DNA of 61,723 nt, taken from positions 1 to 61,723 of the forward strand of contig JAACFE010000004.1 of NCBI GenBank assembly GCA_009937525.1, written 5' to 3'. The translations under genes were made by a program, and so were the position numbers. This DNA comes from Gammaproteobacteria bacterium (GTDB lineage: Bacteria; Pseudomonadota; Gammaproteobacteria; Steroidobacterales; Woeseiaceae). Positions within the stretch are counted from its first letter, which is position 1. The number at the start of each line of letters is the position of its first letter. This document shows, piece by piece, positions 18,911 to 25,725 of the stretch. The notes below the pieces were generated by a model. The model was given only the letters and a program-made list of their open reading frames with translations. It ran no database searches and had not been told where the DNA came from.

Positions 18911-20266
18911 TCAGCCCAGCTTGAGCCGCGCGCGAATTTCTCGCCGGGCATCCCGCAGCACGGACTCGCGATCGAGATCGTCGAGTATCCGCTGCACCAC
19001 CTGCTTCGGTCCACCGTCCCCCCAGGACTTGCCCTTCGCAAGGTATTCCGCGGCGATCTGCCCTACCACGTAAGTGCTGTAATACGCGATCGCGCCCTGG
19101 GCGCCCGCCGTCAGGATGGTGGAGAGCCCGACTGTGCCTACCTTGAGTGCGCTGGACACGAAATGCAGCGCCCAGACCGTGCCCATGAGCGCAGCCGACT
19201 CGGCGACGATGACTCCGACGAGGGACCCGGCTTCCCGGTTGCTGAGCGGAAGATCGTAGACGCGCGACAGGTGCACGACCATGCCGACATCGATGAACGC
19301 CGCTGCGAACAGATCGGCGACCGGCACCGGGTTGAAGGCGACCGCGATACCCTTGCCGATGCAGTAGGTCCGCACGAGCTTGTCGCCAATCTCCCGTCGT
19401 GCGGCGAGGATTCGACGTCCGACCTGGTCGCTCAGGTCCGCGGCGAAGAGGCTCGCGTTCAGCGCCGCCAGCGTCTTACCCTCGGCATCGAGGATGTCCC
19501 ACAGTGCGACCCGCAGTTCCTCGACATCGGGCGGTCGTTCGCGCTGCGTCGTCACCTCTTTGCCGGCCGCATCGATCTCGACGACGACCTGCGGCCGTGG
19601 CTGCGCAGCCGCGGAAATGATGTGTGATGCGTCGATCAGCCCTTCGGCGCGCGAACGCAGCGACGCCAGCAGCTGCGCCTGCTCGTCCGCCGTGAACAGG
19701 TCGCGCTTGTTCAGCACCACGATGACCGGGCGCCCGCGGCTCAGGAGCGTGCGAAGCGAGTCGAGCTCGGTTTCCGTGATGTCTCCGTCGACGACGAACA
19801 ACACCAGGTCGCATCGGCCGGCCACTTCCTTCGCCAGCTTTTCGCGTTCCTCTCCCCCGGCCTCGTCAAGGCCGGGCGTGTCGATGAGAAACACACCGCC
19901 CGCCTCTACCTCCCGCCAAGCCTGCATGGAGGACAGCTTTGTCTCGCCATGCAGCGGGCTCACTGTAAAGCGGTCTTCTCCGATCAGCGCGTTGAGCAGC
20001 GACGATTTCCCCGTACTCACGCGGCCGAACGCGGCCAGGTGAATGTGGCCGTGCTCGAGCTTGTCCAGCATCGCTCGCACGGCGTCGTAGTCCTGGGACA
20101 GCGACTCGCGCACGCCCGCCGGAAGTCGCGTGTCGCCGATCAGCTCTCGCAGACTCTCGCGGGCGAGATTGAGGTGGTCTTCGCCACCCTCCTCGTCAGC
20201 CGGCGTCCGCTTTTTCTTCCAGGGCCAGCCTGGCAACGCGTCGAACGCCCGCTTCAATATGTTCAC
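18911..20266 (-). CDS. GTPase with C-terminal DUF697-type region (second of a pair)
   Basis: 451 residues from GTG 20266, preceded by GGAAGGA. P-loop GRVSTGKSS at residues 81-89, G3 DTPG at 129-132, G4 NKRD at 186-189. The C-terminal third has hydrophobic helices (AVAFNPVPVADLFAAAFI, VSSALKVGTVGLSTILTAG), typical of DUF697 regions of YcjF-like GTPases that associate with membranes. The start lies 71 bases inside the preceding gene, a longer overlap than elsewhere here. It is a paralogue of the upstream GTPase but lacks its N-terminal membrane helices. The cellular role is unknown. Confidence 0.8.
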   Translation of the reverse strand: MNILKRAFDALPGWPWKKKRTPADEEGGEDHLNLARESLRELIGDTRLPAGVRESLSQDYDAVRAMLDKLEHGHIHLAAFGRVSTGKSSLLNALIGEDRFTVSPLHGETKLSSMQAWREVEAGGVFLIDTPGLDEAGGEEREKLAKEVAGRCDLVLFVVDGDITETELDSLRTLLSRGRPVIVVLNKRDLFTADEQAQLLASLRSRAEGLIDASHIISAAAQPRPQVVVEIDAAGKEVTTQRERPPDVEELRVALWDILDAEGKTLAALNASLFAADLSDQVGRRILAARREIGDKLVRTYCIGKGIAVAFNPVPVADLFAAAFIDVGMVVHLSRVYDLPLSNREAGSLVGVIVAESAALMGTVWALHFVSSALKVGTVGLSTILTAGAQGAIAYYSTYVVGQIAAEYLAKGKSWGDGGPKQVVQRILDDLDRESVLRDARREIRARLKLG

Positions 20267-21695
20267 TGATTCCTTCCTCGAATTCTTTTGCTGCCTCCTC
20301 GGGCACCAGCTCGCCATTCCGCTTGAGCGTCAGCACCAGGCTGCGCCCCAGCGCATCGAATATCAGGCCGTAGGCAACCGCGTGAACGAGCCCGCCAGCC
20401 ACGGTGCCGATACCGGGAAATGCCTTCAAGCCGTTCCCGGCAACGGCCAGCGTCAGCGGCAAAGCTCTGCCGACCCGGCTCTGGCTCAGGTTGAGAAATT
20501 CCTCGATATCGAGATCCCTCGGCGCCGCACCGTATAACGTACAAAGCTCCTGCGTCATCGTGGTGCCGACGTAACCCTGGATAATGACGTCGGTGCCGGG
20601 ACTCACGGCCGCGAGGGAACCGATGACAGCCTTGCGCGTCGAGTTGCGGATGATCTGCTCGGATCGCTGCTCGCGGTACTGCGCTTCGGCTTCGACGAGT
20701 TTCTCTGCGGCGAGCCGGAACACGGCACGATCGCGGCGCACGTCGAGCGGCTGTGCTTCGTCTTGCAGCATTCGATTGATGGCCACGACGAGGACGCCTA
20801 TGTCGGCAGGCCGCTTGCGTCGCACGACGCTTTCCGAACCATCCTCGCTGCGCTGCACGACATCCATCTCTCCGCCCGCCGACACGGCTACGACCCTGTC
20901 GCGCTCGAGGGAGCCGCCCATATCGTCGACGCGCCGCAGGAGTTTCTGCATGATCGCCGCCTGCTCCCCGACGTCAAAACGGTCGGCCTTGTTCATTACG
21001 AGCACCAGCGGCTTATCGAGCGCAAGCAGGTGTCCCACAGCCTGGCTCTCGGCCCGTGTGAGATCACCGTCGCAAACGAACAGCACGACGTGGGCACGCT
21101 GTGCTTCTTCGAGCGCCACCTCGTCCAGGCTTTCTTCATGGCCCCCGGTACCGGGTACGTCGGTCAGGAGAATCTCGCTGCCTTCGTTATTGCGCCATCG
21201 GTAATGGCGCACTTCGCCGGTCGATCCGCCGACGACATCGATGGCGACGTCCGCTTCGGGCACCAGCGCCTTTATCAGGGAACTCTTGCCCGTGCTTATT
21301 TCACCAAAGAAGCACAGGTGAATGACACCCGCCTGCTGTCGGGAGGCCAGTTCCTGAAGTTCGCGCTGGGCTTCGCCGACGTCGACACCCGCCGCCTCGG
21401 CGTCGCGCAGCCGTGATTCGATTTCGTCGCGAGTCAGCGGCGGCGCCGCGGCCGCCTTCCTTGCGGGCGGCGCCTTGCGGCGAACAAGCAACAGCCAGAT
21501 CAGGTAAACGGCCAGGATCACCAGCCCGATCATGGCGCCCACGTAACCCCAACGAAGCACCCACGGACCTTCGAGAAGCCGGTCCCAGACATTCAGCGCA
21601 GTTTGTGTGAAAAGCAGTAGCGCCCCGATCGCGATAAAGAACACCACGACGATCAGCAGGCCGAGGACGATGCGTATGAACTTGTCCAGCTTCAT
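20196..21695 (-). CDS. Membrane-anchored GTPase with DUF697-type region (first of a pair)
   Basis: 499 residues. Two membrane helices (about 7-30 and 49-71) precede an Ala/Pro/Lys-rich linker and a G domain: P-loop GEISTGKSS at 131-139, G3 DVPG at 179-182, G4 NKAD at 235-238. The C-terminal part has SLAAVSPGTDVIIQGYVGT and GNGLKAFPGIGTVAGGLVHA, a hydrophobic Gly-rich stretch of DUF697 type. The protein probably sits at the inner membrane with the GTPase in the cytoplasm. It starts 59 bases after the sheath gene and overlaps the second GTPase. Confidence 0.8.
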   Translation of the reverse strand: MKLDKFIRIVLGLLIVVVFFIAIGALLLFTQTALNVWDRLLEGPWVLRWGYVGAMIGLVILAVYLIWLLLVRRKAPPARKAAAAPPLTRDEIESRLRDAEAAGVDVGEAQRELQELASRQQAGVIHLCFFGEISTGKSSLIKALVPEADVAIDVVGGSTGEVRHYRWRNNEGSEILLTDVPGTGGHEESLDEVALEEAQRAHVVLFVCDGDLTRAESQAVGHLLALDKPLVLVMNKADRFDVGEQAAIMQKLLRRVDDMGGSLERDRVVAVSAGGEMDVVQRSEDGSESVVRRKRPADIGVLVVAINRMLQDEAQPLDVRRDRAVFRLAAEKLVEAEAQYREQRSEQIIRNSTRKAVIGSLAAVSPGTDVIIQGYVGTTMTQELCTLYGAAPRDLDIEEFLNLSQSRVGRALPLTLAVAGNGLKAFPGIGTVAGGLVHAVAYGLIFDALGRSLVLTLKRNGELVPEEAAKEFEEGISEHIEAGVRRVARLALEEKADAG

Positions 21696-21754: not shown

Positions 21755-23308
21755 TCAGGTGCAGTCGCCGTTCACGGGGGCAAATGCGGTGCTTGCAACC
21801 CGAAACCCTTCCACCGACTGGTGCAGGCTCAGCGAAATCGGTTTGTCACAGCCCTGCGGCCGGAACGAGATCAGTATTGAGATGCCGTGATTCCTGCCGT
21901 CGGGATTTCGACGCAGTCCGGCGTCACACTGCACGTCGATCATGTCGTCCGCAAACGCGCCCATGTCGGTGAGCGCGCTGAGAAATGCGAATACCTGGCT
22001 CTGAATACGATGTGTCAGGAACTCGTCGACGCGTTCGAACACCGTCCACCGTGTCGCCTGTTCGATCGAGTTGACGATATGCAGGCACAGGCGACGAACC
22101 GGGAGGCTTGTCAGGGGACGCTGCATCTCGCTGCCGCGCGCCATCGTTGCCGAACCCGTCACTCGCGCCCTGCCCGCGTCACCGGGCAAGATGACGTTGA
22201 TCCCTTCACGCGCGAGAGCCTGCGCTGCTTCATCGTCAACACTTACTGCCGGCACGAACCCCCGGCTCAGACCGAGCCCGTGTTGATCGAGATGCTGCCA
22301 GGGACCGTAGTTGCAGTCGAGTTTGCACAGCAGACCGGCGATCGCCCCGCCAACCGCTCGCGGCTGCACGTCGCTGTCCTTGCGGAACGCCATCCGGGGA
22401 AAATAACTCAACATATTCGGACTGGCGTAACCTTGCTTGCGTACTTCCCGCACTACGGCCTCGGGGTCATCGAGGCTGGTTCGCGGATCGACGATCAGCA
22501 TCGCACCACGGTTCCGGCAGTAGCGCTCCGCTGCAAGGATGGCCGCGGGCCCCAGGTCGATGCCTTTTCCCGGTGGTGGCAGATACAGGATGTCGAACTT
22601 GTCGACCGAGTCCAGTGCGAACATTCCGGTGTGGTCACGGCGCGAGCCCACCAGGTCGTAGTCGGACAACTCCTGGCCGTCGGTGCCGTCCTGAGTGTGA
22701 TCGACGTAGCTGGTACCGCGCCAGGCATCCTGCGGCGCTGTCCGCTCGGGCCTGTGCGAAGGATAGGGCTTTGCGACTCGAACCAGCGACGACGTCAGCA
22801 GTGCATCGGCAACGAACGAGTCCGCTTGCTCGCGGAAGCTGAGCTTGCGGTACATCTCCTGGTCGATAACGAAGCGCGAAGCCATATCGACGCGCTGCAG
22901 CGTCAGGTTGAACAGTTCATCGTTACCGGGATCGATGCCGTCATAGTCGACGGCCGCCCGGACGCATTCCGTCGAGCCCGGATCACGTGCACGCAGAACC
23001 AGTGCGGAACCGCTTGCCGGCAGGCAGATCATCGCACCGCGGGCATTGTTCGCAATTCGCACGACATAGAGGTTCCTGCCGCCGTGTTCGAAGAACTGCC
23101 TGACCGCCGGGCCGAGACTCGAACGCGACCAGACGTCGCCGAAACGGCGGCGGAACTCTCCGAGGTTGTGAAGGAGAACCGGCGTATTCAGAGGGCCGCG
23201 AAGTGCACGTCCGACAAAGGCCGCCGTGGTTTCGGGCGCTGCGTCGATAGGCTGGTCCATCGACGCAATCTCTGTGACCGTGATGCCACGATCGACCGCA
23301 TCTGGCAA
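21755..23308 (-). CDS. Contractile tail sheath protein, without other phage genes
   Basis: 517 residues from TTG 23308 (GGAG six bases upstream). ETTAAFVGRALRGPLNTPV, FRRRFGDVW and PAVRQFFEHGGRNLYVVRI (residues 26-84) are the N-terminal sheath region. FDILYLPPPG, CRNRGAMLIVDP and the following helix belong to the subtilisin-like core. AREGINVILPG and SIEQATRWTVFERVDEFL (about 412-431) are the C-terminal sheath domain. All parts of a phage, R-pyocin or extracellular-injection-type sheath are present. No tube, baseplate, spike or lysis gene is in the window. Two GTPases follow on the same strand. The role is unknown. Confidence 0.85.
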   Translation of the reverse strand: MPDAVDRGITVTEIASMDQPIDAAPETTAAFVGRALRGPLNTPVLLHNLGEFRRRFGDVWSRSSLGPAVRQFFEHGGRNLYVVRIANNARGAMICLPASGSALVLRARDPGSTECVRAAVDYDGIDPGNDELFNLTLQRVDMASRFVIDQEMYRKLSFREQADSFVADALLTSSLVRVAKPYPSHRPERTAPQDAWRGTSYVDHTQDGTDGQELSDYDLVGSRRDHTGMFALDSVDKFDILYLPPPGKGIDLGPAAILAAERYCRNRGAMLIVDPRTSLDDPEAVVREVRKQGYASPNMLSYFPRMAFRKDSDVQPRAVGGAIAGLLCKLDCNYGPWQHLDQHGLGLSRGFVPAVSVDDEAAQALAREGINVILPGDAGRARVTGSATMARGSEMQRPLTSLPVRRLCLHIVNSIEQATRWTVFERVDEFLTHRIQSQVFAFLSALTDMGAFADDMIDVQCDAGLRRNPDGRNHGISILISFRPQGCDKPISLSLHQSVEGFRVASTAFAPVNGDCT

Positions 23309-23399
23309 CTTGGTCTCCGTGAGTCAGATTACCGTGCCCGCATTCTAATCAGTGAAGTTTGCTTATGCCATCGCTCGTTGCCAATATGATTACGCCATC

Positions 23400-24458
23400 A
23401 TGACCGATTTCCTCGTCAACGCCTATCCGGCACTCGCGGGCAAGCTTCGCAAGGTAGCACTCGCGAACCTGCCAACACCGTTAGGCAGAGGCTCGATCCC
23501 GGGTCCGTCGGGCCTGCGTGATGTCGGCATCAAGTACGATAACCTGACGAGCTCGTACTATGGCGGCAACAAGCTCCGCAAGCTCGAGTATCTCTTGCAG
23601 CGCGCGATCGACAAATGTGCCAGGCGTGTCGCGACCTTCGGCTCCGTGGCGTCGAATCATGCACTTGCGACGGCGCTTTATGCCCAGCGCCTCGATCTCG
23701 GCTGCACCTGCCTCTTATCCCATCAGGTGAAATCGCCTGCCGTCGTCAAGGTCTTGAGATTGCTCATGCACTGCGGTGCCGAGATCGTCCCGTACGGCGG
23801 AGATAGTCATTCCCGCGTCCAGACGATGCGGCACCACGTCCAGGGGCGCCGCAGCTGGGTCATCCCGCTCGGCGGTTCGTCGTGGCTGGGCGCGGTCGGT
23901 TACGTCGGCGCCGGACTCGAACTCGCCGACCAGGTCAATGCCGGCGTGATCGAGGCGCCGGCGCGAATCTACATCGCGACCGGAACGATGGGGTCCGCCG
24001 GCGGCCTTGCGCTCGGACTCGCGCTCGCCGGACTACCAGGCGAGGTACACGCTGTACGGGTATCTCCGGAACAGATCATGAACCGCACGCGGCTGGACAG
24101 GCTGATGGCGAAGACGGCCCTCATGCTCAACCGGCTGGACCCCGGCATTCCAGCCGATCTCCACCGGCGCGCGCGCGTCCAGGTTCGGCATGAGTTTTAC
24201 GGCGACGGATATGCCAGGAGCAACCCGGCCACGGACGCTGCGATAGCCGTCGCTCGGGATTCGCTCGGACTCGAGCTCGAGTCGACCTACACGGGCAAGG
24301 CGATGGCAGCGCTGCTTCACGATGCCGGGCAATCACGATACCGCGATGCGTCCCTCATGTTCTGGAACACCTACAACTCGAATCCGCTGCCGGACGTGCG
24401 GGAATCCGATATCGATCTGGAACAGCTGCCCGCAGAGTTTCTGCGCTACTTCGACTGA
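23400..24458 (+). CDS. PLP-dependent deaminase of the ACC deaminase/D-cysteine desulfhydrase family
   Basis: 352 residues from ATG 23400; GTG 23352 would add 16. Fold type II (tryptophan synthase beta superfamily). YYGGNKLRKLEYLL holds the PLP lysine, FGSVASNHALATALYA binds the substrate carboxylate, and IATGTMGSAGGLALGL is the phosphate loop. Members deaminate 1-aminocyclopropane-1-carboxylate or desulfurate D-cysteine; the sequence alone does not decide. The gene is divergent from the sheath gene, and its 3' end overlaps the small gene on the other strand by 13 bases. Confidence 0.85.
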   Translation: MTDFLVNAYPALAGKLRKVALANLPTPLGRGSIPGPSGLRDVGIKYDNLTSSYYGGNKLRKLEYLLQRAIDKCARRVATFGSVASNHALATALYAQRLDLGCTCLLSHQVKSPAVVKVLRLLMHCGAEIVPYGGDSHSRVQTMRHHVQGRRSWVIPLGGSSWLGAVGYVGAGLELADQVNAGVIEAPARIYIATGTMGSAGGLALGLALAGLPGEVHAVRVSPEQIMNRTRLDRLMAKTALMLNRLDPGIPADLHRRARVQVRHEFYGDGYARSNPATDAAIAVARDSLGLELESTYTGKAMAALLHDAGQSRYRDASLMFWNTYNSNPLPDVRESDIDLEQLPAEFLRYFD

Positions 24459-24574
24459 TCGTCGTCCGATTCTTTCGCTTCCTGCTCGCGTCGCTTCTGC
24501 TCCTCTTCGGCTTCGCGTGCTTCGCGTTGTTTGCGGGCGATCTCCTCGAGCATAACGTCGAGCCAGTCGTTCAC
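24446..24574 (-). CDS. Small charged coiled-coil protein, 42 residues
   Basis: GTG 24574 overlaps the stop of the L,D-transpeptidase gene as GTGA, with AAGGA just upstream in the shared sequence. The product begins VNDWLDVMLEEIARKQREA and continues as a Glu/Lys/Arg-rich helix ending in DDDQSK, a likely single coiled coil. No known family. The coupled start and the ordered heptad-like composition make it more likely to be real than chance. The end overlaps the convergent PLP-enzyme gene. Confidence 0.5.
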   Translation of the reverse strand: MNDWLDVMLEEIARKQREAREAEEEQKRREQEAKESDDDQSK

Positions 24575-25725
24575 AAATCCTTTTCCTCTTGCTCCGGTTC
24601 CTCGGCCATCACCTCATCCATGATTTCGCGTACTTCGGTAAGCGTCGGAGCATTCGGGTCGGGCTCGACCGTATTTCGAACGAGGCTTGCGCGCGCGAAT
24701 ACCTCGTGCGCATCGTGATAGCTGACCAGGGACGGCACGCCGTTTGCGGTACTCGCGAGAGAGCGGATGTGATCTGCGTCGCGCTCGCCGAGCCCCGCCT
24801 CGGCCTTGGCGCTCTCCAACAGCAATTGGAGCCGTTCTTCGGCGGGGTTCGCATCGTCCTCGAGTGGCGCATGCGCCTCGAAATACAGTTCGCCGTTTCG
24901 CCAGCCGAGGAGATAGGGCTCGTTGACGATGCGGACGGTTTCTCCGACGCCGACCAGCGAATAAAGTAGCTCGATGTTCTCCGGGTACAGCCGCACGCAT
25001 CCGTGGCTGACGCGCATGCCCACGCCATAGGGCTGGTTGGTGCCGTGAATCAGGTAGCCCGGCATCGCGAGCTTGAGCACATGCGACCCGAGCGGATTGT
25101 CCGGTCCGGGCGGAACCACGGATGGCAGCGGGTTGCCCGTCTCCGCGTGTTCCTGGCGCACCGACGCCGGCGGGAACCAGTGCGGATCAGCTGCTTTCGA
25201 CACGACCTCCGTCGCGCCGACAGGGGTCTCCCAGCCGACCCGCCCGATCCCGATCGGATAGGTGAGTACGGTCTGCGGCTGGCCCTCGGGGACCTCCGGG
25301 AAATAGAACAGCCGCTTCGAGGCAATATTGAGCACGATGCCTTCGCGAGGGACATCGGGGACAACGTACTGCGTGGGCAGCAGAACCGGTGTCCGATCCC
25401 CCGGCAGCCAGGGGTCGACGTCCGGATTGGCGGCAATGATCTCGTCGTAACCGAGCCCGTATTCCCGCGCCAGATCGGAGAGGGTGTTCTCGGCGTCGGT
25501 GTAGACGATCTGCGGCGCGCCGATAACGGACTGCGTCTCTGTCTCGAGCACGAAATAGTTGCGGGAGATCGGCTCCTCCAACGGGCGAGCCTCCAGCGGA
25601 ACGGGCTCGGGGCGCGGCTCGCCGGACTGGCTGGAGTACAAATCCTCCAGGAAAGCGCAGCCGGCCAGCACGACAGGTGCCAGCAGTACCGTACAGCGAA
25701 GAGCGGCTGGAAAATGCGTGTTCAA
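24571..25725 (-). CDS. L,D-transpeptidase lipoprotein
   Basis: 384 residues from TTG 25725. A lipobox (VVLAGC, Cys23) directs it to the outer membrane or periplasm. A LysM-like peptidoglycan-binding segment follows (YTDAENTLSDLAREYGLGY, IIAANPDVDPWLPG). The YkuD catalytic domain shows FPIGIG-type strands, LIHGTNQPYGVG and SHGCVRLYPENI, with the catalytic Cys in SHGCVR. Such enzymes link Braun-type lipoproteins or 3-3 crosslinks to meso-diaminopimelate. The tail is Glu-rich. A 42-residue gene is coupled downstream. Confidence 0.92.
   Translation of the reverse strand: MNTHFPAALRCTVLLAPVVLAGCAFLEDLYSSQSGEPRPEPVPLEARPLEEPISRNYFVLETETQSVIGAPQIVYTDAENTLSDLAREYGLGYDEIIAANPDVDPWLPGDRTPVLLPTQYVVPDVPREGIVLNIASKRLFYFPEVPEGQPQTVLTYPIGIGRVGWETPVGATEVVSKAADPHWFPPASVRQEHAETGNPLPSVVPPGPDNPLGSHVLKLAMPGYLIHGTNQPYGVGMRVSHGCVRLYPENIELLYSLVGVGETVRIVNEPYLLGWRNGELYFEAHAPLEDDANPAEERLQLLLESAKAEAGLGERDADHIRSLASTANGVPSLVSYHDAHEVFARASLVRNTVEPDPNAPTLTEVREIMDEVMAEEPEQEEKDL

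Follow-up and report, generated by a model that had tools for sequence, protein, structure and literature searches.

We describe a full-length contractile tail sheath gene that stands without tail genes among ordinary chromosomal genes, and we put at about 85% the probability that it is an exapted sheath with a new, tail-independent role. The window, meaning the whole stretch of DNA that was analysed, is one entire contig (C128) of 61,723 bases from an assembly of 3,008,482 bases in 167 contigs that is 95.55% complete, and NCBI taxonomy places its family, the Woeseiaceae, within the Woeseiales, Gammaproteobacteria. A reading made from the sequence alone had proposed reuse of the sheath, and this is now strongly supported by the presence of the gene across the order without tail genes, its position on one side of a branch in the sheath tree, purifying selection, and an apparent inversion of constraint within the protein.

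Sheath identity of the gene

The gene, its probable ribosome-binding site and the parts of its protein are as follows.

21755-23308, minus strand: lone sheath gene, 517 amino acids, TTG start (open reading frame, PHROG 23, PDB sequences, predicted model and Foldseek)
23315-23318, minus strand: GGAG, probable ribosome-binding site of the TTG start (sequence and same-genus loci)
23234-23308, minus strand: N-terminal arm, residues 1-25, part of the inner core (pLDDT 31 and 58 over residues 1-20)
22412-23038, minus strand: outer part, residues 91-299, apparently newly constrained in the lone clade (lone-specific sites and pair comparison)
21758-22126, minus strand: C-terminal inner core, residues 395-517, apparently relaxed in lone sheaths (conservation tables)

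Judged by its sequence and predicted fold, 21755-23308 is a real gene and its product a sheath, and the description of it as full-length was borne out. The PHROG 23 "tail sheath" profile matched residues 8-454 of the 517-residue protein (E 6.5e-30), and a search of PDB sequences returned 8bky (1.8e-20), 8bl4 (4.8e-18) and 9ezm (1.8e-16). Structure prediction, which had been proposed as a check, gave a monomer model with a sheath fold (AlphaFold, alignment of 33 relatives, mean pLDDT 85.6, pTM 0.85). In Foldseek its top match was 9ezm (E 3.3e-26), and the best 50 of 101 matches at E <= 0.001 were all drawn from contractile tails or injection systems, or were sheath proteins in isolation. The C-terminal tail extends past the end of tube-paired sheaths. 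Of 19 same-genus loci, 18 carry GGAG, GAGG or AGGA at the position of the ribosome-binding site.

Membership in the sheath family is thus supported by both fold and sequence profile, though PF04984 is silent. Usual annotation models miss the gene, since Pfam and NCBIfam at E 0.001 assigned no family to the protein and a PF04984 profile search of the window's whole genome had no match. When the Pfam threshold was relaxed to E 10, the sole match was Gp18_domIII_N at a sub-threshold E of 0.01.

Absence of tail partners in the genome and across the order

The window's genome contained no match to the tube (PF06841), gp25 (PF04965, which also covers the gp25-like type VI marker TssE), the Pvc16 cap (PF14065) or Baseplate_J (PF04865), nor to a home-made tube profile built from 20 tubes. 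The solitude of the gene, first noticed within 61 kb, therefore extends through the assembly for tube, gp25, cap and Baseplate_J, these being its scope. Some 4% of the genome may lie outside the assembly, a gap that is covered by six genomes each listed as one contig (G073, G083, G085, G157, G203 and G264), in which the sheath was present and none of the same four partners was matched. The suggestion that the protein might be cargo for a particle encoded elsewhere found no support in any of these seven genomes.

Across the order we sampled 247 genomes, each at least 90% complete. Matches to the sheath alignment were found in 209, with a best E <= 1e-90 in 203; the weaker six were G041, G043, G051, G148, G161 and G180, and the matches in G043 were ordinary CIS sheaths. 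Of the 247 genomes, 11 had the PF06841 tube, 21 gp25 and eight the Pvc16 cap, and the home-made tube profile matched in 10. Ten of the 11 PF06841-positive genomes were among those with a sheath, so that 199 of 209 sheath genomes lacked a PF06841 tube, a count to be read with the control, in which PF06841 matched 0 of 14 known genomes, its sensitivity being judged from the 11 genomes with a match. In G010, G255, G262, G197 and G210 the lone gene coexists with a separate CIS sheath that has its own tube. Among 60 relatives, 49 had orthologues, with full-length open frames in nearly all listed. The gene is not essential everywhere, because it is missing in 38 of the 247 genomes and truncated in G001.

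At the level of loci, the tube profile had no match in 53 lone loci (981 kb) or in a second set of 80 loci, the two sets overlapping in part. It matched every one of the 14 sheath loci compared from outside the order, and it matched 22 of 25 short sheath loci outside the order (L173-L197), the exceptions being the distant L195, L196 and L197; the profile had been refined partly on class loci that it later matches.

The tube-paired loci have the appearance of full CIS. L199, for example, encodes a gp19 tube, a T4-baseplate-like protein, Pvc16 and an AAA protein. The CIS sheaths of Streptomyces coelicolor (8bky/8bl4), of the Gammaproteobacteria loci L198-L211 and of the Streptomyces europaeiscabiei plasmid NZ_CP109155 share the fold of the lone sheath, align over its full length and are nearest to it in the tree, but they adjoin tube, DUF4255 and AAA genes, whereas the lone sheath is without these and its constraint appears inverted. 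Genomes of tube-paired loci outside the order contained gp25 in 12 of 13 cases, and in eight measured loci it lay 8.7-15.2 kb from the sheath on the same contig; a baseplate-less ancestral cassette was dropped as a candidate on these grounds. Plasmid relatives of the lone sheath reach at most about 32% identity, and the Streptomyces europaeiscabiei plasmid sheath adjoins a tail protein, DUF4255 and an ATP-binding protein. The best Foldseek match, 9ezm, is the sheath of Halogeometricum borinquense (PMC11566945), which is described there as part of a contractile injection system whose activity is contact-dependent and is not a lone gene. Two apparent CIS loci within the order, L046:2758-9284 (G043) and L215:6904-11311 (G197), each hold two sheath and two tube genes, and the sheaths are unusually long.

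Descent of lone sheaths

A quick tree with 81 rows put every one of the 52 lone sheaths on one side of a branch with an SH-aLRT of 99, and in a careful tree of 79 rows the lone-sheath branch had support of 100/100, with 100% of 200 bootstrap trees in agreement. The truncated L052 was left out of the trees, as were the second sheaths of L046, L213 and L215; L212 and L064 were omitted from the careful tree and the pairwise comparison and included in the quick tree, where the lone rows still grouped on one side (99). Supported sets in the quick tree included f1 (22 rows), f10 (17) and f11 (3), and on these sequences such family sets fit vertical descent, as would be expected of it. The best 80 related loci belong to Woeseiaceae, Woeseia, Chromatiales and other proteobacteria.

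A phage origin of the present gene was rejected, as a tblastn search of 50,697 phage records at 1e-5 had no match to the sheath. Relatives in IMG/VR were confined to 10 contigs at identities of at most 31-38%, and all 10 carried a tube match; neither collection contained a close phage homologue of the kind that a prophage or its remnant would have. On two of these contigs (L218:7403-9519 and L219:7977-10094) the sheath-tube pair adjoins further genes, which we take to resemble those of filamentous phage, and the two contigs are probably chromosome flanking a prophage.

Purifying selection and inverted constraint

We compared dN/dS among the 40 closest pairs of sheaths. The 39 lone pairs ranged from 0.043 to 0.192, several of them being one genome entered twice, and the window's sheath compared with L068 gave 0.153; this check, which had been proposed from the start, points to purifying selection across lone pairs (0.04-0.19). 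The remaining pair, L044/L045, gave 0.210. These are second copies in G012 and G030, respectively, of the same genus as the lone gene and, like it, sheaths outside a full system. They differ from the lone clade in that they group with tube-paired sheaths and have kept the core of paired sheaths, to which their inner parts are 0.70-0.72 identical. The CIS-type second sheath at L045:8688-10208 stands alone, and that at L044:8998-10860 adjoins a 106-residue tube-like fragment; unlike the lone clade, both look like recent leftovers.

Remnants in decay, whether of a prophage or of an injection system, would look like these two different genes, near-normal CIS sheaths of which one lies beside a tube fragment. 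For the window's lone gene, a reading as such a remnant is highly improbable. It would account for a single gene and for the truncated copy in G001, but it is at odds with the low dN/dS, with full-length frames in nearly all listed relatives, with a distribution over 209 of 247 genomes, and with the absence of a tube from the 53 lone loci; it was rejected for these reasons.

As described in PMC9230969, known sheaths share a core made of the N- and C-terminal regions, which lies nearest the tube and assembles the tail, with the remaining domains farther out, and PMC6088184 describes, in R-type particles, an attachment helix of the sheath inner domain that touches the tube. We split the window's protein at borders of our own choosing into an inner part (residues 1-25 and 395-517), a mid part (26-90 and 300-394) and an outer part (91-299). 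Mean site conservation in the inner and outer parts was 0.884 and 0.544 in 19 tube-paired sheaths, 0.658 and 0.696 in 22 lone sheaths of the window's family, and 0.480 and 0.602 in 30 other lone sheaths. Inner identity exceeded outer identity in 299 of 300 tube-paired pairs versus 34 of 1326 lone pairs, the pairs not being independent, and at an outer identity of 0.30-0.45 the mean inner identity was 0.83 in paired sheaths versus 0.27 in lone ones.

Individual sites gave a similar picture. Of the sites conserved in paired sheaths (at least 90%), the inner part kept 18 of its 86 in both lone sets, the mid part 22 of 58 and the outer part 20 of 28 (Fisher test of kept inner versus outer sites, p 3.5e-6), and 21 of 28 lone-specific conserved sites lay in the outer part. 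In a circular-shift test, an inner/outer contrast as large arose in 62 of 496 shifts for the window's family, which is weak, and in seven of 496 for the other families. With 18 of 86 sites kept, and the inner part ahead in so few lone pairs, the conserved inner core that would serve tube contact and assembly is not retained. Judged from these alignments, constraint has been inverted in lone sheaths, the inner core being relaxed and the outer part newly constrained. The sequence-only reading had also considered that the reused protein might remain contractile, which is disfavoured by the relaxed tube-contacting core and by the 199 sheath genomes without a PF06841 tube.

The AlphaFold models differ in the same region. 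The C-terminal core of the lone model had a pLDDT of about 62-94 (block means, residues 401-500) versus below 50 (residues 411-527) in a tube-paired control built from 21 rows. This contrast may be an alignment artefact and is confounded, because a paired core that varies little gives the alignment little signal.

The relaxed core also bears on whether the sheath still self-assembles without a tube, forming polysheath-like rings or tubules that would act as a cytoplasmic filament or scaffold, a reading that we hold to be unlikely while ranking it ahead of the other alternatives discussed here. The precedent is gp053 of phage FV3, a sheath that, according to PMC6357053, can act in vitro without other viral proteins and form tubules; that polysheath is an overexpressed phage protein, whereas the lone sheath is a conserved chromosomal gene. 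The sheath fold is kept, as are the N-terminal arm residues G8 and E13, and the arm has a conservation of 0.82 within the window's family. Most other paired-motif residues are lost, however, the paired C-terminal motif AP.KPAEFV has disappeared from the window's family and is kept in part elsewhere, and conservation in lone sheaths is lowest in the core, which carries the contacts for assembly. The relaxed N- and C-terminal parts make canonical sheath assembly less likely. A TTG start codon suggests modest expression, which also weighs against this reading; the start codon in the 19 same-genus loci was TTG in 16 and GTG in three.

Gene neighbourhoods of the lone sheath

The genes around the sheath in the window are listed here as context, with no link to the sheath implied.

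23309-23399, no strand: divergent intergenic stretch of 91 bp between sheath and PALP, the PALP ATG being at 23400
23400-24458, plus strand: PLP-dependent enzyme (PALP), divergent neighbour (PF00291, E 1.2e-28)
24571-25725, minus strand: L,D-transpeptidase (YkuD; PF03734, E 4e-19)
20196-21695, minus strand: GTPase, next gene downstream of the sheath after a 59 bp gap (PF01926, E 6.2e-13)
18911-20317, minus strand: second GTPase with DUF697 (PF05128, E 2.9e-31)

The PALP ATG at 23400 reads MTDFLV..., which agrees with the start of a relative's gene. Directly upstream of the sheath ribosome-binding site (23309-23340), TCTGAC was present in 18 of 19 same-genus loci, and this element is perhaps part of a promoter or operator.

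The ordinary chromosomal neighbourhood noted in the window recurs at the lone loci of relatives, as the proposed comparison of neighbourhoods showed. A PF03734 L,D-transpeptidase lay within 6 kb on the same strand as the sheath in 36 of 51 loci, no sheath ORF having been chosen in L031 and L160. With five families (f1, f2, f3, f10 and f15), it is the most widely shared co-oriented neighbour of the lone sheath; none was seen within 6 kb in families f4, f5, f7, f9 and f11. In 29 of 51 loci, PALP was encoded within 6 kb on the strand opposite the sheath (families f1, f4, f9 and f11). These neighbours may be tied to the sheath by shared descent alone.

At L029:10765-16953, as in many relatives within the window's family, the sheath is followed by genes for an ECF-type sigma factor, a small protein, DUF1800, DUF1501 and DUF885. 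Of 23 loci of the window's family, 16 have at least one gene of the ECF sigma/DUF1800/DUF1501/DUF885 cassette near the sheath; the window is without it, so the cassette was set aside as an obligatory partner. The two adjacent GTPases at 18911-21695 match the PADLOC LeoA/LeoBC models (2.7e-20 to 2.4e-15).

The sheath itself had no PADLOC match, and it was rejected as a defence system on that account. This result weighs on the reading in which the protein acts on foreign tails, either as a decoy or dominant-negative sheath against phage or CIS assembly or as an accessory sheath for a particle elsewhere, which we judge to be very unlikely. The sheath fold would suit such a role, and in five genomes the lone gene coexists with a separate, tube-bearing CIS sheath. 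The window's genome, however, has no tube, gp25, cap or Baseplate_J, the phage records offered no close target, co-assembly would require the very core that is relaxed, and the gene sits at a syntenic chromosomal place and in no variable island.

We also considered a role for the outer domain in small-ligand binding or catalysis, with the sheath ancestry incidental. The clustering of lone-specific conserved polar residues in the outer part would be in keeping with a binding or active site, as would the PLP enzyme that is so often the divergent neighbour. No known catalytic signature was recognised in the protein, and its profile and fold searches matched sheaths alone; we therefore give this reading little credence, if somewhat more than action on foreign tails.

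A probable tail-independent role for an exapted sheath

Under exaptation, the separation of a CIS sheath from its tube would have happened a single time, either before this order of Gammaproteobacteria diversified or early in that radiation, and the sheath would have been inherited since as a stand-alone chromosomal gene. The protein would be soluble and cytoplasmic, and would no longer grip a tube or contract. It may work by binding a partner through a conserved face of the outer beta-rich domain (residues about 91-222), whose lone-specific residues include D123, Q138, R139, Q150, T190, Y217, D218 and S222, and it would do so as a monomer or small oligomer, not as a helical sleeve. We lean slightly towards a non-helical, tube-independent scaffold or adaptor as the form that the exapted sheath takes. 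Because the L,D-transpeptidase is the shared neighbour, an envelope-linked protein would be the first candidate to look for as the partner.

More tentatively, and with appreciable doubt, the order-wide sheath-fold family could be a housekeeping-type cytoplasmic scaffold or receptor that has given up tube and sleeve and acts through the surface which once faced outward from the sleeve, possibly helping to maintain the envelope beside an L,D-transpeptidase; this would be the first tail-free job of a sheath.

Implications for contractile tail proteins

In the open literature we found no account of lone, orphan or domesticated sheaths, nor of tail sheaths in Woeseia or Steroidobacter, subscription papers being mostly outside the scope of the search. 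A lone sheath would be easily overlooked, because Pfam and NCBIfam miss the protein and an eCIS survey demanded ten core genes (PMC8213781). The comparison of lone with tube-paired sheaths is a clean natural one for mapping the residues that bind the tube or direct assembly. Sheaths are commonly viewed as one gear of a machine, and the lone family has outlived its machine. The apparent move of constraint from the inner to the outer part suggests that a component of a contractile tail can gain another use.
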